This document shows, piece after piece, positions 9,613-63,672 of a stretch of DNA of 64,000 bases. The notes beneath the pieces are model-generated. The model saw only the letters and a list, made by a program, of their open reading frames with translations. It was not told where the DNA came from and searched no databases. The number at the start of each line of letters is the position of its first letter. Position 1 is the first letter of the stretch. A program made the position numbers and the translations under genes. Origin of the DNA: an uncultured Oscillospiraceae bacterium (GTDB lineage: Bacteria > Bacillota > Clostridia > Oscillospirales > Oscillospiraceae). The DNA is taken from positions 248,001-312,000 of the forward strand of contig CALWVV010000001.1 in NCBI GenBank assembly GCA_944385035.1. The letters are read 5' to 3'.

Positions 9613-9636
9613 TGCCTCACCTCCACAGGTCGTTCT

Positions 9637-9645
9637 ATCATACCA
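9637..9645 (-). promoter_or_regulatory. Extended -10 element before the intact Mg ATPase gene
   Basis: TGG followed by TATGAT (minus strand) gives an extended -10 motif 25 bases upstream of the ATG, with no recognisable -35. The predicted untranslated leader is very short, which argues against a riboswitch directly before this gene. Confidence 0.35.
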
Positions 9646-46152: not shown

Positions 46153-46153
46153 C

Positions 46154-46834: not shown

Positions 46835-46897
46835 ACGTTCACGACCTTTGCTTTTTGATGCCGGGAAGCCAGCTTCCGTTTCAACCGCCTGAGCACT

Positions 46898-47764
46898 TTA
46901 AGACACAGGTGTAAACCCTACTTTCTCAAACACCTCATCCCCGGCTTCACCAGTCAGATATGTCAGAAAGTCCTTCGCTTGCTGAGGATGTTCGGAGCTG
47001 TTTATTACCGCGGCTGGATAGATGACCTGGCCGCACATCTCTGCAGTGGCAGTATCCACAACCGTAAGCCCTGCAGAAAAGGCATCGGTCTGATAGATTA
47101 TGCCGCAATCCACCACCGCCTCAGAAACTTGAGTGGTCACTTCCTTCACATTGGAGCCATACGTAATACAGCCGGAAGCTGCAAGATCTTTTTCTCTCAG
47201 CGCAAAGTAATCAAAAATTTTCTGAGTATATTGCCCCACAGGCACGTCTGCATTTCCCATGGCCAGAAGAGCAGATCCCTCGTTCAACTTCTGCGCCAAT
47301 TCTTTGTAGGAATAAATCCCAGCCGGATTTCCCTCCGGCACGGCCAGCGCCACCTTGTTTTCCAAAATATTGAATCGGCTGTCGGCAAGAACAAAGTCCA
47401 ACTGTTCCGTATTTATCTGAGAATCCGCGCTGATATCAAGCTGATCCATTTGCTTTTGTCCCGCAGAGATAAAAATATCCACCTCCGCCCCCTCCTGAAT
47501 CTGAGTTTTGAGCGTACCGGAAGAGTCAAAATTAAACACAAGGCTGACATCCTGGTGTTCCTGCTCGTACTGTTCTCCAAGCTCCGTGAGGGTTTCCGTC
47601 ATCGAAGCGGCCGCAAATACAATAAGCTCTACCGGCTCAGAGACTTGCTGGGAACTGCCGGAAGCGTTCCCCGAAGACGAAACGCTATTCCTATGATCTT
47701 TTCCGCAGGAAGCCAGGGAAAAAGCCAGCACCCCAGCAAGGATCAACGCAAAATACTTCTTCAT
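46898..47764 (-). CDS. modA: Molybdate-binding lipoprotein ModA
   Basis: 288 residues. Lipoprotein signal with LASC lipobox (FALILAGVLAFSLASC), a Ser-rich linker, then the type II periplasmic-binding fold: VFAAASMTETL, FNFDSSGTLKTQI and GADVDIFIS-like QEGAEVDIFISAGQ, followed by YPAAVINSSEHPQQAKDFL. These Ser residues bind the oxyanion in ModA. Tungstate cannot be excluded as a ligand. It precedes modB and modC. Confidence 0.92.
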   Translation of the reverse strand: MKKYFALILAGVLAFSLASCGKDHRNSVSSSGNASGSSQQVSEPVELIVFAAASMTETLTELGEQYEQEHQDVSLVFNFDSSGTLKTQIQEGAEVDIFISAGQKQMDQLDISADSQINTEQLDFVLADSRFNILENKVALAVPEGNPAGIYSYKELAQKLNEGSALLAMGNADVPVGQYTQKIFDYFALREKDLAASGCITYGSNVKEVTTQVSEAVVDCGIIYQTDAFSAGLTVVDTATAEMCGQVIYPAAVINSSEHPQQAKDFLTYLTGEAGDEVFEKVGFTPVS

Positions 47765-48031: not shown

Positions 48032-49006
48032 TCAAGTGTCTTGTGTTGCTCTGAAGTGAATCAGTTGTGCAGCAATGGAAATGGCAATTTCCTCCGGGGT
48101 CTGTCCTCCTATCGGCAGTCCAATGGGGGTAACAATGCGGGAAAGCGCCTGCTGTGAAAAACCGCATTTCTGCAGCATTTCAAAGGAATACTGTGCTTTC
48201 CGTTTGCTTCCGATCACTCCAATATAGCGGGCCGGCGTGCAAAGCACCTGTTGCTGCACCAAAAGGTCATAATCATGGCCACGGGTCATAATACAGACAT
48301 AATCATGCTCCGTTATGGAAATTTCCTGAGGAATGTTTGAAAAATCGATCTGCTTGACCTTGTACGCAAGGGGAAACAGTTCCCGCGAGGCAAATTCCTC
48401 ACGATTTTCCAGAACTACGCAAGGAAAATCCAGCGGATACAGAACAGGAACCAATGCCTGAGCCACATGGCCACCGCCGAAAATATAGACCAAGCCGGGG
48501 CGATGAATTTGTTGCGTGAACCACCTGGCCCCCTCCCACTCCAAAATCCTGGGAGGAGCCGGCAGCGACGATGAATCCTGTACGGTCAGTTCCCCATGTT
48601 CCAGCGGAGTGCACAGCCAGAGCGGCTTTCCCGCCTCAAAAGCTGCTGCAACTGTTTCACACACAGCCGCAATTTTGGTGTCGTGCCCTTGAATTGGTAA
48701 AAAATGGGCCTTCACCTGTCCGCCGCATACCATATCCAGTTGTCCCGGTCCCGTCTGATTCAACGAAAAAATCCGGCACTGCGGCCTCTGGGTGGGATCG
48801 CACTTTAATATTTGCTGCGCCGTTTCAATACAGCGGCTTTCCACCGCTCCGCCTCCCACAGTGCCAGCCACCCGCCCCTGGCTGCCCACCAGCATGCGTG
48901 CGCCCGCACCTCGCGGGACAGAGCCGGAGCTGGCAGTCAAGGTGACCAAAACCGTGTCTTCTCCCTTGAGCGTCATATTTTTCAACGCATGAAACAGCCT
49001 TTTCAA
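48032..49006 (-). CDS. xdhC: XdhC/CoxI family maturation factor
   Basis: 324 residues. N-terminal XdhC/CoxI domain (VTLTASSGSVPRGAGARMLV, VAGTVGGGAVESRCIETAQ) and C-terminal Rossmann domain (YIFGGGHVAQALVPVLYPL, IGVIGSKRKAQYSFEML). XdhC binds molybdenum cofactor, promotes its sulfuration and inserts it into xanthine-dehydrogenase-type enzymes. It lies between mocA and modA. Confidence 0.92.
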   Translation of the reverse strand: MKRLFHALKNMTLKGEDTVLVTLTASSGSVPRGAGARMLVGSQGRVAGTVGGGAVESRCIETAQQILKCDPTQRPQCRIFSLNQTGPGQLDMVCGGQVKAHFLPIQGHDTKIAAVCETVAAAFEAGKPLWLCTPLEHGELTVQDSSSLPAPPRILEWEGARWFTQQIHRPGLVYIFGGGHVAQALVPVLYPLDFPCVVLENREEFASRELFPLAYKVKQIDFSNIPQEISITEHDYVCIMTRGHDYDLLVQQQVLCTPARYIGVIGSKRKAQYSFEMLQKCGFSQQALSRIVTPIGLPIGGQTPEEIAISIAAQLIHFRATQDT

Positions 49007-49696: not shown

Positions 49697-51121
49697 TCAG
49701 GGAATGATGTCCTCATCTTTCTGGGCAGGATCCATATACTTGATGGTCCAGCCAGTCCAAATGCAGATCAGGGACATGATAGGATTCAGCATTGCAAAGA
49801 ACATAAAGGGAGCATACTGACCGGTCGCTACGCCTAAGGTGCCCAAGATAAACGCGCCGTCTGTTCCATAAGGGCAAAACGGAGCACAGAGGGTGCCTAC
49901 GTCCTCCAGAATACGGGACAGGTTTTTGGGATGCAGGTTGCGGTCACGGAAGGTCTGGCGGAACATCCGGCCGGGCAGCACAATGGCGACATACTGAACG
50001 CCAGTGGCAAAATTGGTAAACAGGGTAGAAAACACCGTCGTCGTCATCATCGCCTTGTCGCTCTTGGCGTGGGAAAGGATCTTTTCCACCACACTATGGA
50101 CCATTCCTGTGCGCTCCACGATTCCGGCAAAGGCCAGCGCAATTAAAATCAGGGCAATGGTGTCCATCATACCAGACAGGCCGCCCCGGTTGACCAGCTT
50201 GTTGATGGCCTCAACGCCGGTGTCCATGCTGACACCAGTATAGGCGGCTCCCAGCACCTGAGACAGCGTGGCCCCCTGGAATGCGATGGCAAATATACCG
50301 CCTAACGCCGCTACCCCCAGCAGTCCAGGGATAGCAGGGACCTTGAATATGACCATCAGCAGCACGCAGATGGGAGGGATCAGCATAATAGGGCTAATGT
50401 TAAAGCAGGCATCCAGCGTCTCCAGATACAGATCAATGGTACCAAGATCGGCATTTTCTCCCACCACCGAAATTCCCAGTATTCCATAGATAATCAGTGC
50501 AACGATATAAGAAGGAGTCGTAGTATAGACCATGTGCTTCATGTGAGAGAACACGGTGGTACCTGCCATAGCGGGAGCCAGATTGGTGGTATCAGAGAGC
50601 GGCGAAATTTTATCTCCAAAATAGGCTCCGGAAATAATAGCGCCGCAAGTCATTCCGGCGTTGACACCCAGACCGGCACCCACGCCCATCAACGCAACTC
50701 CCACGGTTCCCATGGTGCTCCAGGAGCTTCCTGTAAAGGTAGAAACCAACGTACAAAGCAGGCAGGCCGTGAGCAGGAAGATCTTCGGAGAGATCCAAGT
50801 CAGGCCGTAGTAAATCATAGTGGGCACAATACCGCCCAGCATCCAGGTGCCAATGACCATGCCAATGATCAGCATAATCAGCATGGCAGGGGCAGAGGCT
50901 TTGATGGTGTCGCAAATACCAGCCTCCATTTCCGTCCATTTGTAACCGGACAGAATGCCAACAATTCCCGCGACCGCCGCGGCCAGCACCAGCGGCATGT
51001 GTGCCGAGGTTCCAAACAGCATGATGCCGCTGAGGATCAATGCAAAGGTAATCACAAATACGATTGCCGACTTTCCAAAATCTACCGGGGCTTTTTTTAC
51101 TTCATTGGTTGTCTTAGCCAT
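49697..51121 (-). CDS. NhaC-family Na+/H+ or organic acid antiporter
   Basis: 474 residues with 11-13 membrane helices. Conserved NhaC features are SSWSTMGTVGVALMG, GAIISGAYFGDKISPLSDTTNLA and the late SGMMDTIALILIALAFAG. The family includes NhaC and MleN (malate/lactate with Na+/H+). Its position within a hydroxylase operon suggests movement of the substrate, the product or ions tied to it. The start at 51119-51121 has GGGAGAG upstream. Confidence 0.85.
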   Translation of the reverse strand: MAKTTNEVKKAPVDFGKSAIVFVITFALILSGIMLFGTSAHMPLVLAAAVAGIVGILSGYKWTEMEAGICDTIKASAPAMLIMLIIGMVIGTWMLGGIVPTMIYYGLTWISPKIFLLTACLLCTLVSTFTGSSWSTMGTVGVALMGVGAGLGVNAGMTCGAIISGAYFGDKISPLSDTTNLAPAMAGTTVFSHMKHMVYTTTPSYIVALIIYGILGISVVGENADLGTIDLYLETLDACFNISPIMLIPPICVLLMVIFKVPAIPGLLGVAALGGIFAIAFQGATLSQVLGAAYTGVSMDTGVEAINKLVNRGGLSGMMDTIALILIALAFAGIVERTGMVHSVVEKILSHAKSDKAMMTTTVFSTLFTNFATGVQYVAIVLPGRMFRQTFRDRNLHPKNLSRILEDVGTLCAPFCPYGTDGAFILGTLGVATGQYAPFMFFAMLNPIMSLICIWTGWTIKYMDPAQKDEDIIP

Positions 51122-51256
51122 AACATTCTCTCCCATCCAAATTTTTCAGGGTAATCGAAACGCACGGCCCTCTTGAGCCGTTCTGATGTCACAGATAAGC
51201 TTGGTTTTCTGGTCATACTCCCTCAAAATTTTTATCTCTCTTGGACAAACAACACA

Positions 51257-52138
51257 TTACAGTTCGGCCGCTCCAATCAGCTCCACAACATCGTAAACCA
51301 CACCTTTTGCTGCACGTTCCTTATATAGCTGCTCTGCCTCTGTCAGCTTCAGCTTGGGCGGCCGGGTTCGCTTCAGACGAATCTGCCGGATCTGATCTGC
51401 CAGCAGCTGCGCCGCTTGTTCCGCAGTGAGCAGGTCGGCCAACAAGCCCGGATTGGGAAAAGCACACGGCCTGCGGTCAATAGCGCCGACAAAAGCGCTC
51501 AGGACCTCCGGTTTCCCGCTGTAGTTTTTCCAGGCTGCGCACAGGGATATTTGTGCAATGGTCACTTCCCTGCGGCTGCCAAGCTTAACAAAGCAGCTGT
51601 TCAGCTCCTTGTCAATGGGCAGATATATGGCAGTTAAAATTTCCCCCTGCTGCAAGCAGGTCTTCCCATCGGGAAACAGGAACTCGTCCATGTCTACCCT
51701 TCGGCTTCCGTCCTGGCTGAGGATCTCCAGTTGCCCATGATATAGAAATATACAAGGTGCAATGTCGCCCGCAGGGGAAGCGTTTACAAGGCTGCCCCCC
51801 AAAGTTCCCTTATTTCTGACCTGCTGGGATCCCACATGGCTGCACGCCATGTAAAGTCCACGAAAATAGCGGCGAATCAGATGATTGTCCGCTGCAGCAG
51901 CGTGAGTAACCATTGCACCGATCTTTAAATAGCCGTCCGTCGTCTCTTCCACGACACGCAGGTCCGGAATGTTCCACAAACTTAAAATACATTCATAATC
52001 CGGGTGCCGGGTGCGGATCTGCGGCATCAAATCGGTGCCACCCGCCAGCACTGCGGTGTTTGTCGGAAGAGTTGGCAGTAAGTTCTTCAGATCCTCCAGG
52101 GTGCCCGGCTGAAGGTATTCTGTCCTTGCCATATTCAC
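51257..52138 (-). CDS. Xanthine dehydrogenase-family FAD subunit
   Basis: 293 residues. The FAD-binding motif LAGGTDLMPQIR and the second nucleotide loop VGSQQVRNKGTLGGSLVNASPAGD are typical of CoxM/XdhB medium subunits. The domain passes electrons between the Fe-S centres and FAD. It overlaps the 2Fe-2S subunit gene by 4 bases (ATGA). It is slightly long at the C-terminus, which is basic and unlike the catalytic core. Confidence 0.92.
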   Translation of the reverse strand: MNMARTEYLQPGTLEDLKNLLPTLPTNTAVLAGGTDLMPQIRTRHPDYECILSLWNIPDLRVVEETTDGYLKIGAMVTHAAAADNHLIRRYFRGLYMACSHVGSQQVRNKGTLGGSLVNASPAGDIAPCIFLYHGQLEILSQDGSRRVDMDEFLFPDGKTCLQQGEILTAIYLPIDKELNSCFVKLGSRREVTIAQISLCAAWKNYSGKPEVLSAFVGAIDRRPCAFPNPGLLADLLTAEQAAQLLADQIRQIRLKRTRPPKLKLTEAEQLYKERAAKGVVYDVVELIGAAEL

Positions 52139-52605
52139 TCCTCCTCACTTTGTGCCGCGGCGGCTTCCTGTACTGCAGCCTTGACTTCCCGGTATCCCGT
52201 ACAGCGGCAAATATTGCCCGCGATTGCCATTTTTACTTCCTCTTGCGTGGGATGAGGATTTTTCAATAACAACGCCTTGATCGACATCACCATTCCGCTG
52301 ACGCAAAAGCCGCACTGGACCGCGCTTTTTTTGATAAAAGCCTTTTGGATCACGTCCAATTCTCCGTTTTGTTCCAGCCCTTCAATGGTCCACAGCTCTC
52401 CTCCATCCAACTGCCCGGTCATGGTCAGACAAGAATGAATCGCCTCTCCGTTAAGCATCACGGTACAGGCTCCGCACTCTCCCTCTCCACAGCCTTCCTT
52501 TGTTCCGGTCAAGCCGAGGTCATCACGAATAAAATCCAGCAGGCGTTTGCTGCCGTCCACCTCCATGGTTTCAGGCCGCCCATTTAATGTGAAATGCAGT
52601 TCCAT
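52135..52605 (-). CDS. Xanthine dehydrogenase-family 2Fe-2S subunit
   Basis: 156 residues. Plant-type 2Fe-2S site CGEGECGACTVML with the fourth Cys in HSCLTM, and the second, helical site CGFCVSGM plus CRCTGYREV. This is the small subunit (CoxS/XdhC-type nomenclature) of molybdenum hydroxylases. Its start overlaps the stop of the large subunit as TAATG, so the subunits are translationally coupled. Confidence 0.94.
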   Translation of the reverse strand: MELHFTLNGRPETMEVDGSKRLLDFIRDDLGLTGTKEGCGEGECGACTVMLNGEAIHSCLTMTGQLDGGELWTIEGLEQNGELDVIQKAFIKKSAVQCGFCVSGMVMSIKALLLKNPHPTQEEVKMAIAGNICRCTGYREVKAAVQEAAAAQSEEE

Positions 52606-54878
52606 TATTTTTGTGCCTCCAACGCTTCTAAAATCACCGCAGGGGTCAGGGGCAAATGCCTCAGCTGCGTTCCCAGGGCATGGTTGACCGCAGCCACGAC
52701 AGCAGGTGCCACCGGAGCCAGCACCACTTCGCCGATGGACTTTGCTCCAAAGGGAGCGTTGGGCTCCGGGTCCTCAATCAGGATCGTCTGATAATCCGGC
52801 ATATCCACCGCGTTGGCTACCTCATAATTTTTAAAGTTTGTAATCAGCGCACGGCCGGTTTTCGGATCAATTTTGATCTCTTCACACAGAGCCATTCCAA
52901 TGCCCTGCTGAATTCCGCTTCCCACCTGTCCCCGGCACATATCGGGGTTGATGGCCTTGCCCACATCATGCACAGAGAGGCAGTCCAAAACCTTGGTAAA
53001 CCCAGTATAAGTATCCACTCTCACATAAGTAAAGTGTGCAGCCGGTACGCCGGGATTTGCTGCAGCATTGGTGGTAACCGAACAAAACAGGTCTTCTCCG
53101 GTGACACGGATGGAATATTCACAAATCTCCTGCAGCGAAATCCTGACCGTTTTTTCTGTCTCTTTAAAGAACACTCCAGCCTCATAGTGCAGCACATTTT
53201 CATTGCAGCGAAGCGCAGCGGCGGCCTTCTTCCGTGCCTGATCCATCAATTTTTCACAACATGTCTTCACAGATTGGCCCAGGGAATATACAGTCCTGCT
53301 GGCATAACAGCCGTGGTCATATCGACAGGACTGGGTATCCGCTTCTTGCAGCAGAATGTTTTCCAGGGGGATCTCCGTCACTTCAGAAGCAATCTTTTTC
53401 AAGGCCATTACCGTTCCACACCCATGGTCGTGGACCGCAACATGTACGATCAGGCTTCCGTCTTCCTGCAATCTGGCGTTTGTGGATGCAACATCCACCC
53501 GGTACGGATAGAAGGAAGAGGTATGGGATGCCAACGCCACTCCCACTCCATACCGGTAGCGCCGCTGCTGCTCATTCTGCCGGCGGCACTCCTCTTTTCT
53601 CTCATCCCAGCGAAATGCCTCTCTTCCCCGAACCAAACACTCTTCAAAGTGCGTATTGCCAATGGAAACCTGATGCACGACTTCCTCATCATAGGGCTGA
53701 TGAATATTTTTCAGCCGAAATTCAATTGGATCAATCCCCAATTCCCCGGCAACCATATTCCAATGATTTTCCAGGCAAAGGGTAAGCTCACAGGAACCCC
53801 AGCTTCTAAAGCTCCCATTGATGGGCGTATTGGTACACACCGCTCTTCCGTCAAAGTGAATGTTGGGGATTCGATACACTTTATTGATCTTTTCCCCTAT
53901 GGTAGAGACATAATCTCTGGACACGGTCAGATAGGCTCCGGCATCGAGCCGGCAGGAGAGGGAAACCCCCTGAATCACTCCGTCCGCTGTGACTTTACTT
54001 TTGACTTGTGCATCCACACTGTGTTTCATCATGGTGTTGACAATCTGCTCTTCTCTGGTATATACCAGCCGCACCTCACCCTGCAAGTCCCATGCCGCAT
54101 AGGATGTAAGCGGTTCCAGCAGCGTCTCCTGACGCACACCAAAGGAGCCTCCCATTGGCATCTTGACCACGCGCACCTTGGAATACGGCATTTGAAGCAG
54201 TTCTGCCACCGTACTGCGAACCCCAAATACAGACTGGCACCCAGTCCAGACGGTCAAGGTCTTCTCCGAGGCGTTATATTTGGCGCGGCAAGATTGGGTT
54301 TCCATCGCCAAATGAGTCATGCGTCCAATGTGGGAACAGCTGGAATGACACAACACATCTGTGACAGAGGCATAATCGCCATAATCGAAGGGGGCACATT
54401 CATACACATTGCCGTCCGGGTGAATTTTGGGGGCATCTTCACGTTCTGCCTCGTCCACGGAGACCACAAACGGCAGAGGATCGTATTCTACTTCGATCAA
54501 CCGGCAGGCCTGTTCTGCGATTTCCTCAGAAACAGCAACCACGGCCGCAACGCGCTCCCCCACATACCGGATATGCCGGTCAAACAAACGCTCCTGATTG
54601 GGAACGGTCTCCCAAGGTCCCACCCGTCCGCGGTCATAAAGACGGTCCGGAGTATTCTCACAAGTATATACCGCACGTACTCCGGGCAGCTGCACCGCTT
54701 TTGAGATATCAATGGAACGGATCATTCCGTGGCTGACCGTACCCGCCTTTAATCTCATGTACAGCATGCCCTGCGTGGTTTCATCGCCGCAGTAGTGGAG
54801 CCGGCCGGTTACCTTTCCATACGCCTGATCGTTCGACAGTTCTTTTCCAACTACATGAAACTCTTTCAAAACTATCAT
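52605..54878 (-). CDS. Molybdopterin-binding catalytic subunit of a xanthine dehydrogenase-family enzyme
   Basis: 757 residues, the normal length of the large subunit. The N-terminal aldehyde oxidase a/b hammerhead (KVTGRLHYCGDETTQGMLY) precedes two molybdopterin-binding domains with GGSFGVRQETLLEP and TNTPINGSFRSWG in the cofactor region. The catalytic Glu should be in the C-terminal FGAKSIGEVVLAPVAPAVV segment. It hydroxylates a heterocycle or aldehyde using water. Purines are the commonest substrate in Clostridia, but the sequence alone does not decide it. The annotated ATG has poor spacing; a TTG three codons in (54867-54869) has a better AAAGG site. Confidence 0.92.
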   Translation of the reverse strand: MIVLKEFHVVGKELSNDQAYGKVTGRLHYCGDETTQGMLYMRLKAGTVSHGMIRSIDISKAVQLPGVRAVYTCENTPDRLYDRGRVGPWETVPNQERLFDRHIRYVGERVAAVVAVSEEIAEQACRLIEVEYDPLPFVVSVDEAEREDAPKIHPDGNVYECAPFDYGDYASVTDVLCHSSCSHIGRMTHLAMETQSCRAKYNASEKTLTVWTGCQSVFGVRSTVAELLQMPYSKVRVVKMPMGGSFGVRQETLLEPLTSYAAWDLQGEVRLVYTREEQIVNTMMKHSVDAQVKSKVTADGVIQGVSLSCRLDAGAYLTVSRDYVSTIGEKINKVYRIPNIHFDGRAVCTNTPINGSFRSWGSCELTLCLENHWNMVAGELGIDPIEFRLKNIHQPYDEEVVHQVSIGNTHFEECLVRGREAFRWDERKEECRRQNEQQRRYRYGVGVALASHTSSFYPYRVDVASTNARLQEDGSLIVHVAVHDHGCGTVMALKKIASEVTEIPLENILLQEADTQSCRYDHGCYASRTVYSLGQSVKTCCEKLMDQARKKAAAALRCNENVLHYEAGVFFKETEKTVRISLQEICEYSIRVTGEDLFCSVTTNAAANPGVPAAHFTYVRVDTYTGFTKVLDCLSVHDVGKAINPDMCRGQVGSGIQQGIGMALCEEIKIDPKTGRALITNFKNYEVANAVDMPDYQTILIEDPEPNAPFGAKSIGEVVLAPVAPAVVAAVNHALGTQLRHLPLTPAVILEALEAQK

Positions 54879-54994
54879 CCTTTAAAATTTTTTCTTCCTA
54901 AAAGGGTGCTAGTAGAATGTTCTGCTTGCAACTGCAGAAAAGTTTATGGCCCTTTTCCTTGCGTCGGTTTGTCCTGTATCAAATATGTTTTCAG

Positions 54995-55036
54995 TGTATA
55001 GCCTCAAAATCAAATTCAGGTCAATAAAAGCGTCAA
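54995..55036 (-). promoter_or_regulatory. Hydroxylase operon promoter with TTGAC-type direct repeats
   Basis: On the minus strand TTGACG (55031-55036), TTGACC (55019-55024) and TTGATT (55008-55013) are direct repeats spaced by 12 and 11 bp. The last ends 7 bp before TATACA (54995-55000). TTGACC also stands at 18 bp from this -10 and can act as -35. The arrangement resembles SARP/AfsR activator sites, which overlap the -35 region as direct repeats ending near 8 bp from the -10. Confidence 0.55.
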
Positions 55037-55091
55037 AAAAATATCTAATAAAAATTTTCAATCATTTTCTCCGGAAAAGCGCTCCATTTTA

Positions 55092-55106
55092 CGTCAATTA
55101 TGTCAA
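55092..55106 (-). promoter_or_regulatory. Additional TTGACA/TTGACG pair in the divergent region
   Basis: TTGACA (55101-55106) and TTGACG (55092-55097) on the minus strand are 9 bp apart. They lie about 60 bp upstream of the promoter repeats and could be an auxiliary site of the same regulator or chance in AT-rich DNA. Confidence 0.3.
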
Positions 55107-55171
55107 ACAGATGGCCATAACCACCATTGCACATTTTCCGGAAAACACAGCATGCAATTTCAATGTAGTAA

Positions 55172-55194
55172 CGTCAAAAAAGATATGTTATAAT
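55172..55194 (+). promoter_or_regulatory. Promoter of the AfsR-like regulator gene with one inverted TTGACG
   Basis: A perfect TATAAT at 55189-55194 has no usable -35 at 17 bp. CGTCAA (55172-55177, TTGACG on the other strand) lies 11 bp upstream, where an activator or repressor could act. This suggests autoregulation of the gene starting at 55270. Confidence 0.45.
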
Positions 55195-55269
55195 CTAATT
55201 TAAAATATCGTGTTCTTTCTGAAACTGGAACAAAATGGATCATGTGTGTGTAAGGAAAGGTAGATTCTC

Positions 55270-58200
55270 ATGAGGCAATTAACCGCTTCTCTTTTAGGTT
55301 CCCCCCGTATTCTGAAGGACGGGGAATTTGTTGCGTTTCCGTTTAAGCAAGCAGAAGCCATTTTGTATTATCTTTTGGTGGAGCGTGAAGCACCCCGCAG
55401 CAAAATTGCCGATCTAATTTGGGGAAACAATGTGGGGGATCAAAAGGTCAAGTCCAATATGCGAAACGCTATTTATGTGCTGCGCAAATTGCTGTGGACA
55501 GACTTTCTGATTGAGCCGAGAAAGAACATTCTGCAGATCAATCCAGAGATCGATGTACACCTGGACCTTGAGCAGCTGAACAAAGATTCTGCGGAAATTA
55601 CAAACATTTATGCCGGAGAATTTTTGCAAGACTTCTATCTGAAAGAGAATGAATACTATAACGAGTGGATCTTAAACACGCGGCAAGAGCTTCAGCAGAT
55701 CTATATCGACCGTTTAAAACAGTCCATTGCCCGCCGGTTTGAATCCCAGGACTGGTCTCAATGCGAGGCACAGGCCAAGCAGCTCATCTCGCTGGATGAG
55801 TACGATGAGACAGGCTACTACTATCTCATGGAAATCTACCGCATCAGAGGGGAATATCACAAGGCCATTGCTCTTTACGACCGGCTGAAACTGCTCTTGG
55901 CAGAAGATCTGTTCCAATTTCCCGGAGAACGCATTTCACAGCTGACGGAACTGGTCAAGCAGGAGCGCAGCCAAAAACTCATCAAGGCCTCCGCTTCAAC
56001 GCAAGCTGCCTTTCCCACTCAGAATTCCGGAATGACCCATAAGACTCCCATATACGGGCGCGCCTTGGAACAAGAGCTGCTGGTCAAAAATGCCCTTCAG
56101 TTTTTCAACGGAGGAACCTGCATCAGCCAAGCAGTCATCGGGGAGGCCGGCATCGGAAAAAGTACGCTGTTAAATCATCTGTGCAGCGGTCTTCAGACCG
56201 GTGAGGAGACCTTTTTGTTTCATGCTTCCTGTTACCACGCAGAAGAAACCTTTGCCTTAAAGCCATGGCAGGCTATTTTTGAGCAGATCTTACACTTGAT
56301 CAAAAAATGCCCATCGGACAAACGAAATGCCTATTTTCATACAATGACCGGGCTCTTTTTCCCTCACTTAAAAGATGGCGACGCAGAGCTTATCGATCAG
56401 GACTCCATCAGCATCCAAACATACGACGGCAATGAAAGAACCATTACCCACGCTCTGCTTCACTTTGCCAAAAACCGAAAAATCATCATCTGCATCGACG
56501 ACCTGCAATGGGCTGATATTTTAACCGTATCCTTGATCCAGGACATCCTCACCACCAACCAAAATCACAACATCATGTTTCTTCTGGGGTGCCGAAGCGC
56601 GCACAACGAACATATCTCCCGCTTCCTGGAAGACATGCACCTGGCCCACTTTTTGCAGAAAATCGTTTTGGAACGTTTCAGTTTCGCCGATACCGTTGGT
56701 CTGGCGGATTCTCTGCTGCCTCGCCGGTTCGACTCAGCCGATCTCCGCAAGCAGCTTTACCACGAGACGGAGGGAAACCCGTTTTTCATCATCGAAACCG
56801 TCAATAATTTTAAGTATAACGGAGATCTGGCGGACATCACCCAAAATATGAGAGACACCATTCGCCAGAGGACCATCCACCTTCCTTCCGACTGCCGTAA
56901 TATTTTAGACCTCTTGTCTTTGTTTTTTGACGGCGTTTCTCTCCCTTTTCTTGCGGAGCTTTCTCAAAAACAGGAATACGAGCTAGTCGATATTCTTGAA
57001 ACCTTGATCGATCAACAGCTGATTTGCGAAAAGGCCTCCGATACTGGTGTTCGTTTTCAATTTACCCACCAAAAGATTTTGGAATATGTATATAGCGAAT
57101 TATCTCTGACCAAACGGCGTGTCCTGCACGAACGGATCGCCAACCTTTTGGAAGGAAAGCTGTCCGGAACGGGCAGGGATTTTCCCCTCTACCATAAATT
57201 GATGTATCATTTCGAACGGGCCAAGAATCAGAAAAAGTATCTGAAATATTACATCAAATACATTTATGTCCAGCTAAACCGCGCCCATGAATACTACCCC
57301 GTAATCAGTGACGGCCAATGGTCCGTCACCTCCAAAGACCTAGAGAGCAAAACATATGACGACAACGGCATCATCCGCAGTCTCCAGCGCATTGGAGATT
57401 TGATAAAAGCCAACGAGGGCACCTTTGAAGTGTCCGATCAGCAGGACTATCTGTCCGATTACTGCCACATGATGGGGCGGTATTATATCCGCAGTGCAGA
57501 CTATACACAAGGACTATCTTACATTCAAAGATTAGTCGAGCTAAACGAACCAATCAACTCCGATCAAGCTCTGAAAAACATCATCAAAGCAAATCGTCAA
57601 AAGGTCTGCGTCTATATGAACCGCTATGAACCCGAGCCCATGCGCACACTTGTGGAGGAATCCATCACACTTTTAGCCGGACATAGCAAGCCAGAGGAGC
57701 AGGCCATCTGGATGCGCCTGTCCGGAATGAGTGACATCATGTCCGGCGACCTCTCCTCCGCCCAAGTACAGTTCAGCCGAGCCATTGAGCTATTTGAGAA
57801 ATCGCTGGAAAAGGAACAGTACCGTTATAACTTAGCCGCCTCCTACGCCGGTCTCGGCGAGGCAAAACGGTTGTCGCTGGATTATCCTGGGGCCTTTGTC
57901 TGCTATGAGCAGGCCATCACTGTTTGCAAAGATTATTACCTGGGCGGCGGTGCAGCTTCCTTCTACACCTACGCCGGGCAGGCAGCTCTCGACAGTCAAG
58001 ACCTGGACCGGGCCGAGGAATATTTGACTCAGGCCGTGGAATGTTTCAGCAAAATTGAGCTTTTGTGGGAGCGCAGTATTGCATTTGCCTATTATGGCCT
58101 GCTATGTTTTCTCCGAAAGCGGTACGCTGATGCGGTCAAAAATCTGGAAATTGCCGAAACCTGTTCCCAACGGTTGGGCAGCCGCTATGAGCAGGGCGTC

Positions 58201-58389
58201 CTCAATCGAATATACGCCTGGATCGCGATACAGCTTCAGAAAGACCGGGATGTTCCATCCCTTCTTTCAGCGGTTATCACCCAAGCACCACAGGTATATA
58301 TTCAGCGTGCAAGAGCTTTGTTGGACTGTGTATACTCTCCCATTGATGAAATCTATTTAAATCAAATGGAAAAGGTCCTTTCCGAATAA
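55270..58389 (+). CDS. AfsR/SARP-like ATPase transcriptional regulator
   Basis: 1039 residues. N-terminal OmpR-type winged helix (about 1-95), then a bacterial transcriptional activation domain (BTAD) of TPR-like helices (about 100-230, with DEYDETGYYYLMEIYRIRGE), an AAA/STAND ATPase with Walker A GEAGIGKST near residue 295 and Walker B IIICIDDLQWAD near 405, and a long C-terminal TPR region (about 640-1039). Such proteins, best known in Streptomyces, activate promoters with direct repeats after binding a ligand or partner and ATP. It is divergent from the hydroxylase operon and upstream of the PLP-enzyme operon; both promoters have matching repeats. Gene ends in a strong terminator. Confidence 0.88.
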   Translation: MRQLTASLLGSPRILKDGEFVAFPFKQAEAILYYLLVEREAPRSKIADLIWGNNVGDQKVKSNMRNAIYVLRKLLWTDFLIEPRKNILQINPEIDVHLDLEQLNKDSAEITNIYAGEFLQDFYLKENEYYNEWILNTRQELQQIYIDRLKQSIARRFESQDWSQCEAQAKQLISLDEYDETGYYYLMEIYRIRGEYHKAIALYDRLKLLLAEDLFQFPGERISQLTELVKQERSQKLIKASASTQAAFPTQNSGMTHKTPIYGRALEQELLVKNALQFFNGGTCISQAVIGEAGIGKSTLLNHLCSGLQTGEETFLFHASCYHAEETFALKPWQAIFEQILHLIKKCPSDKRNAYFHTMTGLFFPHLKDGDAELIDQDSISIQTYDGNERTITHALLHFAKNRKIIICIDDLQWADILTVSLIQDILTTNQNHNIMFLLGCRSAHNEHISRFLEDMHLAHFLQKIVLERFSFADTVGLADSLLPRRFDSADLRKQLYHETEGNPFFIIETVNNFKYNGDLADITQNMRDTIRQRTIHLPSDCRNILDLLSLFFDGVSLPFLAELSQKQEYELVDILETLIDQQLICEKASDTGVRFQFTHQKILEYVYSELSLTKRRVLHERIANLLEGKLSGTGRDFPLYHKLMYHFERAKNQKKYLKYYIKYIYVQLNRAHEYYPVISDGQWSVTSKDLESKTYDDNGIIRSLQRIGDLIKANEGTFEVSDQQDYLSDYCHMMGRYYIRSADYTQGLSYIQRLVELNEPINSDQALKNIIKANRQKVCVYMNRYEPEPMRTLVEESITLLAGHSKPEEQAIWMRLSGMSDIMSGDLSSAQVQFSRAIELFEKSLEKEQYRYNLAASYAGLGEAKRLSLDYPGAFVCYEQAITVCKDYYLGGGAASFYTYAGQAALDSQDLDRAEEYLTQAVECFSKIELLWERSIAFAYYGLLCFLRKRYADAVKNLEIAETCSQRLGSRYEQGVLNRIYAWIAIQLQKDRDVPSLLSAVITQAPQVYIQRARALLDCVYSPIDEIYLNQMEKVLSE

Positions 58390-58429
58390 CAGGTCAAACT
58401 GCCTTGCCGTGCATCCATTTTCCATTTCT

Positions 58430-58480
58430 AAAAAAGCTTGCATCGAATTGTCTGATCCACAATTCGATGCAAGCTTTTTT
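58430..58480 (+). terminator. Strong intrinsic terminator of the regulator gene
   Basis: Perfect 22-bp stem (58430-58451 with 58459-58480) with a 7-base loop, ending in seven T. It cleanly separates the regulator transcript from the downstream operon. Confidence 0.9.
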
Positions 58481-58572
58481 TATCCATATCAGGCTTTTGC
58501 TACCAATCCCAGCCTAAACTATCTGCACAAAAAAAGCAACACGTTTTTCTTCAATCTGTAAAATAAGTGAAA

Positions 58573-58627
58573 TTGACGCATTTTTGACGCTGCGTTTGAT
58601 TTTGTTTTGATGATATGGTTTTACGAT
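58573..58627 (+). promoter_or_regulatory. Four direct repeats before the PLP-enzyme operon
   Basis: TTGACG (58573-58578), TTGACG (58584-58589), TTGATT (58596-58601) and TTGATG (58607-58612) are direct repeats at spacings of 11, 12 and 11 bp. A TACGAT (58622-58627) lies 9 bp after the last and is the best -10 candidate, about 55 bases before the ATG. No standalone -35 to -10 pair of good quality is present, so activation by a bound regulator is likely. Confidence 0.55.
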
Positions 58628-58686: not shown

Positions 58687-59847
58687 ATGAACAACTACCA
58701 TTTTGACCTGCAAACAGATATGCGTGGAACCGGCTGCTGCAAATGGGATAAAGCCGGTGCCCAATATCCATTTCCATTCAGTGTCGCGGACACCGACTTT
58801 CGTCCCCCCGTTGAGATCGAAGAAGCCATCATTCAAAAAGTCAGGCAGGGAAACTTAGCTTACGGAATCTATCCTCCTGCCTTTCACAAAGCAATTAAAT
58901 CCTGGTATGAGCGGCGGTATGGGACAAAGCTGGCCTCGAAGTGGATCCGCAATTCGCCCGGTCTGATCGTCTCTGCAAAACTGATCATGGAAGCAGTAAC
59001 CAGAGTGGGAGAAAATGTTCTGGTGATGCCGCCCGTTTATTTCAATTTTCGGGAAATTGTGGAAAAAAATGGCCGGAACCTGGTGGAAAGCCCATTAATT
59101 TTGGCACAAGGGCATTACCGCATTGACTTTGAAGATCTGGAACAAAAAGCCCGCGACCCCCGTACCACGATGATGATCCTTTGCAATCCCCACAATCCCA
59201 TTGGATATTGTTGGCCGAAAGAAGAGCTGGCGCAAATCGCAGAAATCTGCAGCCGACATGGTGTATTTGTCCTTTCAGACGAGGCCCACGCCGACATTGT
59301 CTATAACGGCGCCAAGCACACGGTATTTTTGGACTCCTGTGAAGCGGCAAAAGACAATTGCGCGTGCATCAATGCCCCAGGAAAAGCCTTCAACATCAAC
59401 GGTTTGTATGTATCCTATGCCATTATTCCAAACGAGCGCATCAGAACTGCCTATGATAATGCCTATGAAAATCACCATTTTGACTTTTCCTTGCTGGGCG
59501 CTGAGGCTCTGATCGCTGCTTATGAATATGGCGCCCGGTACGTAGACGAGTTGGATGAATACATAGAAGGTAACATGCGGTACTTAGATGAATTTTTGAA
59601 AACGAATCTCCCCAAAATCCGTATGGTACCGCCCAACGCTACTTATCTGGCCTGGCTTGATTTCCGTGACTGCGGCATGAACAGCCAGAAAGCGGATCTG
59701 TTTTTGAAATCAGCGGGCCTTGTCCTCAATCGCGGGGATTTGTATGGGGCTCACGGCGACGGCTTTATGCGGTTCAACGTTGCCTGCTCCCGCACGGTGC
59801 TGGAACAGGCACTGGAAGCGTTGAAAAACCATCCTTCACATTTGTAA
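58687..59847 (+). CDS. MalY/PatB-type PLP-dependent aminotransferase or C-S lyase
   Basis: 386 residues of fold-type I PLP enzyme: the N-terminal DKAGAQYPFPFSVADTDF block and KSWYERRYG, NPHNPIGYCW, SDEAHADIVY and the PLP Lys in CINAPGKAFNING. The C-terminal FMRFNVACSR holds the carboxylate Arg. The MalY/PatB group cleaves cystathionine or cysteine conjugates, and some members transaminate. GGAGGAAA precedes the ATG. It is followed by a peptidase and a peptide transporter, pointing to peptide or sulfur-amino-acid use. Confidence 0.9.
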   Translation: MNNYHFDLQTDMRGTGCCKWDKAGAQYPFPFSVADTDFRPPVEIEEAIIQKVRQGNLAYGIYPPAFHKAIKSWYERRYGTKLASKWIRNSPGLIVSAKLIMEAVTRVGENVLVMPPVYFNFREIVEKNGRNLVESPLILAQGHYRIDFEDLEQKARDPRTTMMILCNPHNPIGYCWPKEELAQIAEICSRHGVFVLSDEAHADIVYNGAKHTVFLDSCEAAKDNCACINAPGKAFNINGLYVSYAIIPNERIRTAYDNAYENHHFDFSLLGAEALIAAYEYGARYVDELDEYIEGNMRYLDEFLKTNLPKIRMVPPNATYLAWLDFRDCGMNSQKADLFLKSAGLVLNRGDLYGAHGDGFMRFNVACSRTVLEQALEALKNHPSHL

Positions 59848-59969
59848 TGTGAGGGGATCTGGGACAACTCTCTGGCTATCCCGGCGGCAGCCAGGCAAAA
59901 CAGCAAATATGCTCCAATATTGAATGGAAATATTCCAAGAAAACGATTGTGCTGATGGGAGGTAAAAGA

Positions 59970-61010
59970 ATGAATCATGTAAAAATCGATCAGGAATTTA
60001 TGCTGCACTTCATGGAAAATCTGATCAACATTCCCAGTCCTGTGGGGTACTACGTAAAAGTCAGTAAATTTATGGTAGACTCCCTGACCCAGCTTGGATA
60101 TGAACCCTGGGTGGACAACAAAGGAAACATTTATGTTCGGGTCGCCGGCCAAAACAAGGAAAAAACCGTGGGGATCGTAGCCCACCTTGATACCCTGGGG
60201 CTGATGGTTCGAAAAATCAACGCTGACGGTTCTTTGAAAATCGTCGACATAGGCGGCATCAACTACCACAGCATTGAAGGGGAATCTGTCGTAATCCACA
60301 CCCGTGACAATGGAGAATACACTGGCGTTGTTTGCTGTAATTCCCATTCCCTTCATGTATTTAAAGATGCCGCGACTTTGGAACGCACATCCGAAAATAT
60401 GCACATTATGATCGATGAAAAGGTGTCTTGTGCAGAGGACGTCCAAAAATTGGGAATTCGCGTTGGTGATCACATCTCGGTTAACCCCAGATTCACAGTG
60501 ACAAAATCCGGTTTCATTAAATCACGTTTTATTGATGACAAGGGCGGGGTTGCTGCCGTTGTTGCTACACTGAAAGCCCTCAAAGATCACAATCTAGTGC
60601 CGTCCAATAACGTCCTATTCATGTTCTCTCAGTATGAAGAAGTAGGATACGGAGGCGCAAGTGTTCCCGATGGAATGGAGGAGCTTGTAGCGGTGGACAT
60701 CGCTTCGGTAGGACCGGACAACGCCGGTACCGAATTCGATGTCAGTATTTGCACCAAAGACGCCATTACGGTATATGATGTGCCATTAGTGGACAAGTTG
60801 GTCAAGCTGGCCCAAGAGCATCACCTGGGCTTCCAAACCGACATCTGTACTGGCGGAGGAACAGACGCCTCTCAGGCAGTACGGGCCGGCAACAACTTGA
60901 GAGTTGCAGCTATCGGCTTAGGAACTTATTCCAGTCATGCCATGGAGCGGACCCATGTCGAAGCCATGGAGAATACCAGTAAGCTCCTGCTGGCATATTG
61001 CTGCGGATAA
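59970..61010 (+). CDS. M42 family metallo-aminopeptidase
   Basis: 346 residues from ATG 59970, which has GGGAGGTAA 8 bases upstream. Di-metal ligands and catalytic residues typical of M42 are visible: AHLDTLG, FIDDKGGVAA, SQYEEVGYGG, VDIASVGP and a late SSHAMERTH. M42 enzymes are large cytoplasmic complexes that remove N-terminal residues of peptides. It is about 120 bases after the PLP-enzyme gene and probably co-transcribed. Confidence 0.9.
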   Translation: MNHVKIDQEFMLHFMENLINIPSPVGYYVKVSKFMVDSLTQLGYEPWVDNKGNIYVRVAGQNKEKTVGIVAHLDTLGLMVRKINADGSLKIVDIGGINYHSIEGESVVIHTRDNGEYTGVVCCNSHSLHVFKDAATLERTSENMHIMIDEKVSCAEDVQKLGIRVGDHISVNPRFTVTKSGFIKSRFIDDKGGVAAVVATLKALKDHNLVPSNNVLFMFSQYEEVGYGGASVPDGMEELVAVDIASVGPDNAGTEFDVSICTKDAITVYDVPLVDKLVKLAQEHHLGFQTDICTGGGTDASQAVRAGNNLRVAAIGLGTYSSHAMERTHVEAMENTSKLLLAYCCG

Positions 61011-61089
61011 ATTTATCCAGTGCTATCAAAGAGGAGAGCAGAATTAGACATCATTCGGGAATAAGATTACAAATTTGAGGAGGAGAACT

Positions 61090-62634
61090 ATGAAAACGAC
61101 CAGATTCATATCCATTGCCTTAGCACTTGCACTCAGTGCAAGCTTGTTCACCGGCTGCTCGAACAGCTCGTCTTCCAGCGGCAGCTCCACTGGTTCCCAG
61201 GGGATCAAGGAAGAGATCGTCATTGCTCAGAATTCCGATGCCAAATCTCTGGACTTACAGGCCAGCAATGACGGCGGATCCTTGAACGTCAATGCTCAGA
61301 TCTATGACACCCTTGTCGTCAAGAATGCTGACGGCACCTTCAGCCCCCACCTGGCAAAGTCCTGGGAACAGGTCAGCGACTTGGTCTGGCAGTTCAAATT
61401 GGAAGAGGGCGTGAAATTCCATAATGGAGAGGAATTGAAAGCCAGCGACGTAAAATTCACCTTTGAGCGCGGCCTGACCTCTACCATCAGCTACATGCTG
61501 GACTTCATCGACTCGGTGGATGTCGTCGATGAATATACCTTCAACTTGAATCTGAAGTTCCCCTATGCTCCCATTCTGTCCAATCTTTCCTATACATCAA
61601 CGGGTATTTTGAATGAAAAGGCAGTAACCGAGGCTGGCGAAGACTATGGCCAGAATCCCATCGGCACCGGCGCCTATATGTTCTCCAACTGGAAGGCCGG
61701 CGACAGCATTGAACTGGTTGCCTTTGAGGACTATTTCAAAGGCGCTGCCCCCACAAAAAAGCTGAAGTATCGGAGCATTCCCGAAAACACCAGCCGGAGC
61801 ATCGCACTGGAGACCGGCGAGGTCGATATTGCATACGACATTGATCCTGTGGATAAAGAAACCATCAGAAGCAACGATCAGCTTGTTCTGATTGAAGCTC
61901 CTTCTTTGCAGGTAGATTACGTCGGCTTCAATATGCAAAAGGAACCCTTCACTGACGTGAGAGTCCGGCAGGCCATCAACTATGCCATTGACCGCGAGGG
62001 CATTATTTCTGCTGTTCTGTTGGGCGGCGGCGAGGTTGCTACAACCCCCATTTCCCCCAAGGTGACAATGAGCAATCCCGACATTGTGGGCTATCCCCGT
62101 GATGTTGAAAAAGCAAAGGAGCTGTTGAAAGAGGCCGGATATGAAAATGGTTTCCAAACCACAATCTGGACCAACGATAACTCCGTGAGAACCAGAATCG
62201 CTCAGATCGTCCAGGCAAATCTGAAAGAAATCGGTATTGATGTGGCAATCGAGACGCTGGAGTGGTCCAGCTACCTGGATCGAACCTCCAATGGCGAACA
62301 TGATATGTTTATCTTGGGATGGACCGCTACCACTGGTGACCCGGACGGCGCAATGTACGTGCTGTTCCATGGTTCTTCCTCCGCTACCGCCGGCAATAAA
62401 TTCTTCTATTCCAATGACGAAGTCTCTGAGCTGCTGGATTTGGGCCGTGCGGAAACCGATGATGCAAAGCGGCAGGAATATTACTACAAAGCTCAGGAAC
62501 TGGTGGTAGAAGATGCTCCTTTGGCCGCACTGTATTATGCCAATGATTGTGCCGGAATCAGCGCAAAAGTCGACGGTTTTGTCTTGAGCCCCTCCAAGAG
62601 CCATAAACTGTACGGAGTTACCTGCGCAATTTAA
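61090..62634 (+). CDS. Peptide ABC transporter substrate-binding lipoprotein
   Basis: 514 residues. Lipoprotein signal with lipobox FTGC, Ser/Gly linker, then the SBP_bac_5 fold (IYDTLVVKNADGTFSPHLAK, VKFHNGEELKASDVKFTFER, NPIGTGAYMFSNW, YAIDREGIISAVLLGG). The family binds di- or oligopeptides outside the membrane, some nickel or other small molecules. GGAGGAGAA fixes the ATG at 61090. A stem-loop follows before the permease gene. Confidence 0.92.
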   Translation: MKTTRFISIALALALSASLFTGCSNSSSSSGSSTGSQGIKEEIVIAQNSDAKSLDLQASNDGGSLNVNAQIYDTLVVKNADGTFSPHLAKSWEQVSDLVWQFKLEEGVKFHNGEELKASDVKFTFERGLTSTISYMLDFIDSVDVVDEYTFNLNLKFPYAPILSNLSYTSTGILNEKAVTEAGEDYGQNPIGTGAYMFSNWKAGDSIELVAFEDYFKGAAPTKKLKYRSIPENTSRSIALETGEVDIAYDIDPVDKETIRSNDQLVLIEAPSLQVDYVGFNMQKEPFTDVRVRQAINYAIDREGIISAVLLGGGEVATTPISPKVTMSNPDIVGYPRDVEKAKELLKEAGYENGFQTTIWTNDNSVRTRIAQIVQANLKEIGIDVAIETLEWSSYLDRTSNGEHDMFILGWTATTGDPDGAMYVLFHGSSSATAGNKFFYSNDEVSELLDLGRAETDDAKRQEYYYKAQELVVEDAPLAALYYANDCAGISAKVDGFVLSPSKSHKLYGVTCAI

Positions 62635-62745: not shown

Positions 62746-63672
62746 ATGTATAAATACATCATTAAACGGCTAGCTTTACTTCTCCCTGTGTTAATCGGTG
62801 TATCATTTATTGTATTTACAATTATGTATTTTACACCAGGAGATCCAGCACAAATTATCTTAGGGGAAAATGCAACAGAAGAAGCATTGGCGAACCTGCG
62901 GGAAGAAATGGGGCTTAATGACAGCTTTTTCGTCCAGTATTCTCGCTTTATCATTAACGCGGTCCAGGGCGACTTCGGACGCTCCTATCAAAGCAACCGG
63001 GTGGTATTTGACGAGATTTTCTCACGCTTCCCCGCCACCCTTCAGTTAGCGGGAATCGGTGTTCTTTTGTCTGTGCTAATCGGTATTCCCGTTGGTGTTA
63101 TTTCTGCTACCAAACAATATTCTTTTTTTGACAATACCACCATGGTTTTTGCTCTCATCGGTGTATCTATGCCTAACTTTTGGCAGGGCCTGATGCTCAT
63201 CATGCTGTTTTCCGTTTGGCTGGGAATCTTACCGTCCGGCGGATATGGTGATTGGACCTATTTTATTTTGCCCGCTATCACATTAGGAACCAGCTCGGCT
63301 GGATCTATTGCCCGTATGACCAGATCGTCTATGCTGGAAGTCATCCGGCAAGATTACATCCGGACGGCCCGTGCAAAAGGCGTTCTTGAGAAAAACGTGG
63401 TATATAAGCACGCCTTAAAAAATGCACTGATTCCAATTATTACCGTCGTGGGCCTGCAGTTTGGATATCTTTTGGGCGGAGCTGTGCTGACAGAAACTGT
63501 TTTCTCCTGGCCGGGAATCGGAAGACTGCTGGTGGACTCCATCAAGCAGAAAGATACTCCCATGGTGCAGGGATTGGTGGTATTTATTGCTGTTACGTTC
63601 AGCATCGTCAATTTGTGCATTGATATTCTATACTCATACGTAGATCCCAGAATCAAATCACAATACAAGTGA
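62746..63672 (+). CDS. Peptide ABC transporter permease (OppB/DppB type)
   Basis: 308 residues with six membrane helices. Typical OppB stretches are the N-terminal YKYIIKRLALLLPVLIGVS, FTPGDPAQIILGE, and the coupling loop DYIRTARAKGVLEKNVVYKH. GAGGAGATC lies 7 bases before the ATG. It forms the channel together with the partial gene after it. Confidence 0.93.
   Translation: MYKYIIKRLALLLPVLIGVSFIVFTIMYFTPGDPAQIILGENATEEALANLREEMGLNDSFFVQYSRFIINAVQGDFGRSYQSNRVVFDEIFSRFPATLQLAGIGVLLSVLIGIPVGVISATKQYSFFDNTTMVFALIGVSMPNFWQGLMLIMLFSVWLGILPSGGYGDWTYFILPAITLGTSSAGSIARMTRSSMLEVIRQDYIRTARAKGVLEKNVVYKHALKNALIPIITVVGLQFGYLLGGAVLTETVFSWPGIGRLLVDSIKQKDTPMVQGLVVFIAVTFSIVNLCIDILYSYVDPRIKSQYK

Follow-up and report, generated by a model that had tools for sequence, protein, structure and literature searches.

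Locus and tandem repeats at the flanking promoters

In a 64,000-nt stretch of DNA from an uncultured Oscillospiraceae bacterium (the window in what follows; the whole genome has 2,523,675 bases, or 2.5 Mb), the gene of a large SARP-like regulator is flanked by a molybdenum hydroxylase operon reading leftward and by a PatB/M42/Opp operon (operon B) reading rightward. Tandem TTGAC/TTGAT repeats lie at both flanking promoters and form the candidate operators A, on the hydroxylase side, and B. An earlier, sequence-only reading had claimed that these repeats stand at spacings of 12/11 and 11/12/11 bp and 7-9 bp from the -10, and that the gene between them codes an AfsR/SARP-like regulator, and had predicted that this regulator activates both operons. 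Gene functions were assigned by profile or sequence matches (Table 1).

Site A, on the reverse strand, consists of TTGACGC (55036-55030), TTGACCT (55024-55018) and TTGATTT (55013-55007) which follow one another at 12 and then 11 bp, and 8 bp separate the last half-site from the -10 hexamer TACACT (54998-54993). A weaker half-site, TAGATAT (55047-55041), lies 11 bp further upstream. Site B, on the forward strand, has four half-sites, TTGACGC at 58573, TTGACGC at 58584, TTGATTT at 58596 and TTGATGA at 58607-58613, at steps of 11, 12 and 11 bp, with 8 bp to TACGAT (58622-58627). If the weak TAGATAT is counted in, both sites would read 11/12/11/8. The repeats and spacings thus match those first described, and so does their nearness to the -10; instead of a range of 7-9 bp, however, exactly 8 bp to TACACT and TACGAT fits better. 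When a -10 was defined by at least four of six matches to TATAAT with A2 and T6 required, the hexamer at 8 bp was the sole one to pass within 2-18 bp at each site.

The triple pattern TTGAYN5-7TTGAYN5-7TTGAY matched three times in the window, always at sites A and B, where 0.01 matches were expected and none of 100 shuffles reached three. Across the bacterium's own genome, TTGACN5-7TTGAYN5-7TTGAY gave four matches, three of them at sites A and B and one within an open frame of 250 codons; the reversed control gave none. Adding the promoter element (TTGACN5-7TTGAYN9-11TANNNT) left a single match in the genome, site A, with none in the control; site B falls outside this pattern because both its proximal half-sites are TTGAT. 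Array length and spacing, rather than bare TTGAC pairs, stand out at A and B.

More TTGAC words are present upstream of the regulator outside this 11/8 arrangement, namely TTTGACATAATTGACGTA at 9-bp spacing (window 55090-55109, reverse strand) and TTTTTTGACGT (55172-55182, reverse strand).

Table 1. Features at and around the regulator gene (positions in the window)
Feature	Position	Strand	Basis
XdhC-like Mo-hydroxylase maturation factor, downstream on the same strand as the hydroxylase	48032..49006	-	Pfam; NCBIfam below cut-offs
NhaC-family antiporter, probably same operon as hydroxylase	49697..51136	-	Pfam, NCBIfam, relatives' gene order
Hydroxylase FAD-binding subunit	51257..52138	-	Pfam
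Hydroxylase 2Fe-2S subunit	52135..52605	-	Pfam
Molybdenum hydroxylase large subunit (xanthine-dehydrogenase family)	52605..54878	-	Pfam; PDB; NCBIfam below equivalog cut-offs
-10 (TACACT) of hydroxylase operon, 8 bp from last half-site	54993..54998	-	Sequence, -10 rule
Operator A: TAGATAT (weak)-N4-TTGACGC-N5-TTGACCT-N4-TTGATTT plus 8-bp spacer	54999..55047	-	Sequence, pattern scans
AfsR-type, SARP-like regulator, 1039 aa: N-terminal winged helix and BTAD, AAA_16/NACHT STAND ATPase, TPR tail	55270..58389	+	Pfam; AlphaFold/Foldseek; AfsR alignment
Terminator-like inverted repeat then T run, 3' of regulator gene	58434..58480	+	Sequence reading
Operator B: TTGACGC-N4-TTGACGC-N5-TTGATTT-N4-TTGATGA	58573..58613	+	Sequence, pattern scans
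-10 (TACGAT), 8 bp from last half-site of operator B	58622..58627	+	Sequence, -10 rule
PatB-family pyridoxal phosphate-dependent C-S lyase	58687..59847	+	NCBIfam TIGR04350, 367 bits (cut-off 340)
M42-family peptidase	59949..61010	+	Pfam
ATP-binding cassette (ABC) solute-binding protein, family 5 (SBP_bac_5)	61075..62634	+	Pfam
ABC transporter permease (BPD_transp_1)	62746..63672	+	Pfam

Near the hydroxylase operon, genes of a molybdate-type ABC transporter (ATPase, permease and binding protein) were noticed at 45112-47764 on the reverse strand, from their translations only.

Domains and fold of the regulator

BTAD (PF03704), AAA_16/NACHT and TPR matched the regulator above the Pfam cut-offs. 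An AlphaFold model of residues 1-260, built on an alignment of 13 sequences, had a mean predicted local distance difference test score (pLDDT) of 89.4. When this model was compared with the PDB by Foldseek, three AfsR chains came out on top (8k60/8hvr; template modelling score 0.67-0.72), followed by EmbR, with a sequence identity to AfsR of 20% over the modelled domain. At the sequence level, a family profile matched AfsR (E 9e-10) and EmbR in the BTAD part, and TPR proteins as well.

The winged-helix part aligned weakly with AfsR (E 0.05 for that chain). In this alignment, whose residue numbers agree with those in passages of the AfsR paper (PMC10936776), R87, R94, K95 and W74 of AfsR align with R65, R72, K73 and W51 of the regulator, and the base-contacting T88 and R92 correspond to N66 and V70. 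According to the same passages, R87, R94 and K95 contact phosphates, and T88 and R92 contact bases.

Among the features of large SARPs, the protein shows the winged helix-BTAD arrangement at the level of fold, a STAND/NOD ATPase followed by TPR, and aligned backbone-contact residues. AfsR is its best match by fold, and the recognition helix is aligned at a weak score; the first assignment of the gene as AfsR/SARP-like was upheld by these results. The combination of PF00486 and PF03704 serves as a working definition of SARPs in passages of PMC10663231. Since PF03704 matched and PF00486 did not, we call the protein SARP-like and do not file it as a member. At the promoters, the 11-bp steps and the 8 bp to the -10 expected of large SARPs were found at A and B with one 12-bp step in each, and these sites are the presumed targets of the regulator.

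Repeats in genomes with the closest regulators

Searching 64 genomes of the genus, we found regulator relatives (E <= 1e-60) in 18, own genome included; a scan of genome contigs for regulator relatives with a single protein confirmed none of its 10 candidates. The closest regulators, of G032 (48% identical) and G068 (49%), form clade XA with the window's regulator, and these two genomes also have the closest hydroxylase relatives (45%). In both, TTGACGC-N4-TTGATGA precedes the hydroxylase. A second site in the opposite direction lies before an ammonia-lyase in G032, where it is the same word, and in G068, as TTGACGT-N4-TTGATGT, before an antiporter gene leading to lyase and regulator. The distance to CATAAT is 8 bp at three of the four sites and 9 bp at the other. 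The contig CAOKLO010000050.1 (L226), which does not differ from G068 here, carries the whole cluster. The earlier reading passed the test of conservation that it had itself proposed: the repeats precede the hydroxylase and the divergent gene in two of the two other genus genomes with regulators of 48-49% identity. The NhaC-family antiporter has a relative in G068 that is 84% identical, and there the lyase gene alone stands between antiporter and regulator.

Matches to the XA two-half-site word, chosen without a -10 criterion, had a -10 at 8 bp in three of the five at regulator-linked promoters in XA genomes versus none of 28 elsewhere (p = 0.002); the 28 were examined out of 46 other matches, two of which were further matches in G032. 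A scan of 28 loci for near matches to three TTGAY half-sites found one (L049). The exact TTGAC triple was also considered as a genus-wide marker and rejected. It matched 23 times in 16 of the 64 genomes, and of the 20 matches other than those at sites A and B, 18 lay in open frames of at least 200 codons, so that beyond the own genome the exact triple does not serve as a marker.

The triad that forms the methylideneimidazolone (MIO) group of ammonia-lyases is usually A-S-G. One XA-clade lyase (L038:4111-5721, reverse strand), closest to histidine ammonia-lyases, has A-C-G at this position.

Other clades of the regulator

A tree was built from 21 of the 22 regulator matches, with the partial G023 omitted. 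Besides XA, it grouped XB (G008b, G014, G035b, G080, G007 and G082), XC (four members), XE (three) and XD (G074, G001 and G031, with G032b neighbouring), and placed a paralogue from the own genome separately. Nine genomes had hydroxylase relatives of at least 538 bits (next, 333), and these were exactly the nine with an XA or XB regulator in the tree.

In XB, TCAACGY-N4-TCAAT repeats precede the hydroxylase in five genomes, and in G014 TCAACAG-N4-TCAACGT precedes a flavin reductase gene leading to the hydroxylase. The divergent gene is a lyase in G080, G082 and G007; that of G080, the only one compared, matched the ergothionase 6s7j with 640 bits (next, 236). The next gene in G080 and G082 codes a BCCT transporter and has an operator of its own, and more XB sites were found before DcuC-type carriers (G008 and G035) and before a second lyase (G007). 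In XD, TCGAC repeats precede the divergent gene of all three regulators; in G001, the XD genome checked, this gene codes a urocanase, and an amidohydrolase gene comes next. For the own paralogue, NTGAYG repeats stand both in front of its gene and in front of a symporter-lyase operon, and its half-site pair with a -10 matched twice in the 2.5 Mb, both times beside the paralogue, with one match in the reversed control. The XD and paralogue operators were found by a motif-free repeat scan near regulators.

At the level of the order, two of 394 drawn genomes matched the regulator at E <= 1e-40, the own genome and G231. Near the G231 regulator there is one 11/8 match (TGATCAC, TGATTTC, AATACT), before a formiminotransferase gene, and one at 9 bp, both of ambiguous meaning.

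Several gene arrangements were noted alongside. In G080 an ergothionase-like lyase (L167:5876-7393, reverse strand), a BCCT transporter (4200-5774, reverse strand) and a divergent hydroxylase (7534-9837, forward strand), with operators of 11-bp repeats, form a candidate ergothioneine-use regulon, and the lyase-hydroxylase layout is the same in G082 and G007. An XC-clade regulator is divergent from a formate-tetrahydrofolate ligase gene (L042:8554-10230, forward strand). In another family of the order, a regulator relative (L232:1167-10095) stands beside genes for formiminotransferase, cyclodeaminase, HutD and formate-tetrahydrofolate ligase; the 11/8 match precedes the formiminotransferase gene there.

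Spacing across clades and alternative explanations of the repeats

We compiled 25 sites; those of clades other than XA stand in front of genes for ergothionase, transporters, the hydroxylase, urocanase and lyases. In 23 of the 25, the distance to a -10-like hexamer is exactly 8 bp, and in one it is 9 bp; the remaining site, before the G080 hydroxylase, has TATAAA at 9 bp, which does not pass the -10 rule. The words vary by clade and the geometry is constant. The pattern TTCAACGN3-5TTCAAY, whose 23 matches in the 64 genomes were chosen regardless of the -10, had a hexamer at 8 bp in seven of the nine matches in genomes with an XB regulator versus one of 14 elsewhere (p = 0.001).

A motif-free test was made on 170 upstream regions near regulators. 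An 11-bp repeat with six of seven identities and a -10 at 8-10 bp was present in 12, while 60 shuffles gave 1.83 +/- 1.43 (maximum 6) and steps of 9, 10, 12 and 13 bp gave 3-4. Some of the 12 matches are not described sites. Near copies or split contigs (L165, L050, L056 and L162/L038) had been dropped before counting; L037 was represented by L161, and L168 and L167 took the place of L053 and L055.

These spacings bear on whether the repeats are ordinary -35/-10 promoters, in which TTGACA-like words recur because they match the -35 consensus, without need for a special regulator. TTGAC does supply five bases of that consensus, two-copy TTGAC arrangements are unenriched in the window, and at site A TTGACC stands 18 bp from an alternative -10, TATACA. 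At the XA sites, however, neither hexamer of the pair stands about 17 bp from the conserved -10: the distance is 20 bp for the upstream TTGAC/TTGAT hexamer (21 bp at one site) and 9 bp for the second (10 bp at one site). The TCAAC, TCGAC and NTGAYG words of other clades are not -35 elements, yet they keep the 11/8 spacing, and the triple repeat is nearly unique in its own genome. We regard ordinary promoters as a very improbable explanation, and a plain sigma-70 -35 reading was rejected on the spacing of about 17 bp, which the pairs do not show, and on the change of half-site word between clades. The initial concern that TTGAC is a plain -35 was thereby weakened.

Another explanation is that the 11-bp repeats are bound by a response regulator of the OmpR/PhoB type instead of the adjacent gene's product. 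Proteins of this type have the winged-helix fold in common with the regulator, the same class of DNA-binding fold, and also use 11-bp direct repeats. In Streptomyces, PhoP recognises the AfsR repeats at afsS, as described in passages of PMC10972967. Against this, the half-site word varies with the clade of the regulator that a genome carries and is not one global site, and the own paralogue has its own word variant beside it. We give this explanation little credence. The alternatives considered in this study are not all mutually exclusive.

Proposed mechanism and its standing

We consider it probable that a SARP-like activator of AfsR architecture switches on both flanking operons through A and B, with stacked dimers and the 8-bp geometry to the -10. 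Support for a SARP-like regulator that works through tandem repeats in a bacterium outside Actinobacteria comes from the fold, the recognition-helix alignment (at a weak score), the 11/8 rule and the repeats at orthologous hydroxylase promoters. The domains, the fold, the operator geometry and the presence of repeats at orthologous and paralogous operons are computational observations.

The following findings weigh against this reading. The OmpR-type profile PF00486 was unmatched in the regulator at E <= 0.001, phmmer with the regulator alone gave no PDB relative at E <= 0.01, and the winged helix rests on a predicted model plus the weak alignment. In the window, TTGACN6TTGAC with one mismatch was unenriched (six matches versus 3.71 expected; 16 of 100 shuffles reached six), and the XA two-half-site word alone was unspecific (51 matches in 36 of the 64 genomes; reversed control, seven) and informative only in combination with the -10 spacing. 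At least eight of the 25 compiled sites (three XD, two paralogue and three XB) came from scans that required a nearby -10. Measured against real background, the motif-free result was moderate (12 of 170 versus 8 of 354, p = 0.009), and of the 20 matches at exactly 11/8 with five of seven identities, 11 were described sites and nine seemingly unrelated. The motif-free repeat scan showed no convincing operator for XC (L040, L041, L042 and L046), XE (L049, L052 and L054) or G032b (L045), where the upstream regions of XC and XE were additionally read by eye. Nor was an operator recognised beside four XB regulators (L043, L044, L050 and L051, of genomes G008, G035, G007 and G082), which are on another contig than the hydroxylase site or, in G007, about 119 kb away. 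Finally, the set contains close relatives (G007/G082, G001/G031 and G068/L226), which lower the number of independent lineages to about three for XA, five for XB, two for XD and one for the paralogue. Our confidence in the activator was reduced slightly, from high to fairly high, because of the unmatched PF00486 and the four XB regulators without an adjoining operator.

For site B no conservation was seen: of the 20 listed relatives of the first gene of operon B (32-39% identical), none lay less than 20 kb from a regulator match, the closest being in G014 at about 21.5 kb; many contigs were short. It could be that the adjacent regulator acts at site A alone and that site B is a relic, a chance resemblance or a site of the paralogue, as conservation was found for hydroxylase-side promoters only and TGACG is common to the XA TTGACGC and the paralogue NTGAYG half-sites. 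On the other hand, four half-sites are present at site B, one of them the TTGATGA also seen in G032 and G068; its -10 follows after exactly 8 bp, and the site adjoins the regulator gene just downstream. We judge a regulator confined to site A to be unlikely. The claim of one regulator for both operons is supported on the hydroxylase side, where repeats also precede the orthologous operons, and on the operon B side it stays a suggestion from sequence match and position, so that operon B may be under the same control.

For an activator at both sites, we infer direct binding and activation as follows. The winged-helix/BTAD domain would bind pairs of half-sites 11 bp apart on one face of the DNA. 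A and B would each have a proximal pair (step 11, 8 bp to the -10) and, at a step of 12, an upstream pair, which is weak in A; the upstream pair is one base out of register, which suggests two stacked dimers at A and B. The regulator would keep the housekeeping polymerase at weak promoters in which 8 bp separate the last half-site from the -10 downstream of it; as described for AfsR, it would bind side by side, make contact with sigma region 4 and rely on a -10 that has no well-placed -35. It would thus turn on the hydroxylase operon to the left and the PatB/M42/Opp operon to the right, and its STAND ATPase/TPR part is most likely a sensor of a nucleotide plus an inducer.

An imidazole compound (histidine, urocanate, ergothioneine or a product) is the probable inducer, because ammonia-lyases, ergothionase and urocanase recur as neighbours of the family, and formiminotransferase, HutD and formate-tetrahydrofolate ligase at the level of the order. 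Neighbours off this theme were malate/lactate dehydrogenase (L045), an RCC1/SLH protein (L041) and two genes without a Pfam match (L040 and L054). The PatB/M42/Opp operon, for which there is no obvious imidazole fit, may feed the pathway with peptides. A broader idea, to which we give slightly less than even weight, is that regulators of the AfsR type, with clade-specific half-site words and a common 11/8 geometry, are the imidazole-catabolism switches of the genus (histidine and urocanate, and ergothioneine in XB), and that the hydroxylase acts on the product of the lyase. If true, SARPs would serve not only as antibiotic switches of actinobacteria but also as catabolic switches of clostridia, and the recognition helix would allow the operator word to be predicted.

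Comparison with known systems

A 2024 review states, in the passages considered, that SARPs are exclusive to actinobacteria (PMC10972967). This distribution does not extend to the present family, since the contigs of its closest relatives are labelled as Lawsonibacter sp. and uncultured Oscillospiraceae; the point concerns distribution, not mechanism. Literature searches, with subscription journals mostly outside their coverage, found no SARP-type regulator or regulon in Firmicutes, and the passages of PMC10663231, which deal with biosynthetic clusters, report no Firmicutes SARP. PMC11747023 was rejected as a source for a Firmicutes SARP, as the matching words there are a journal code and an author name.

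Histidine-related regulation in Clostridia is known from the HisR regulons of Firmicutes, and passages of PMC9413887 place one hisR paralogue beside hutH in Oscillibacter. HisR is, however, a DNA-binding protein of the TrpR family, and the word 'sarp' occurs 0 times in the main text of that paper. EmbR (2fez and 2ff4) has the same N-terminal fold, with a C-terminal FHA domain instead of the STAND/TPR part of the regulator. The small SARPs (ActII-ORF4, DnrI and RedD) likewise use heptameric direct repeats overlapping the -35, in three copies for ActII-ORF4 and DnrI according to passages of PMC10972967; they differ in being without the STAND/TPR part and in belonging to actinobacterial antibiotic clusters.

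The closest known system is AfsR of Streptomyces coelicolor, a large SARP (8hvr, 8k60 and 8jke). Both proteins combine winged helix, BTAD, STAND ATPase and TPR, and residues matching R87, R94, K95 and W74 are found in both. Passages of PMC10936776 give a distance of 11 or 22 bp between SARP target repeats and one of 8 bp between the 3' repeat and the -10; for AfsR they describe 11-bp direct repeats that overlap the -35 region, again 8 bp from the -10. The regulator differs in N66/V70 for T88/R92, in the half-site TTGACGC, in its clostridial host and catabolic neighbour operons, and in its sequence, at 20% identity. Protein fold, operator geometry and promoter geometry recur in gut clostridia beside catabolic, not antibiotic, genes. 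With one activator and two short operators in its own genome, this is a compact system for testing SARP operator specificity, and it offers a lead to how gut bacteria control their use of histidine and ergothioneine. Two nutrient-use operons of a gut clostridium appear to be governed by a switch built like the one for antibiotic production in Streptomyces.

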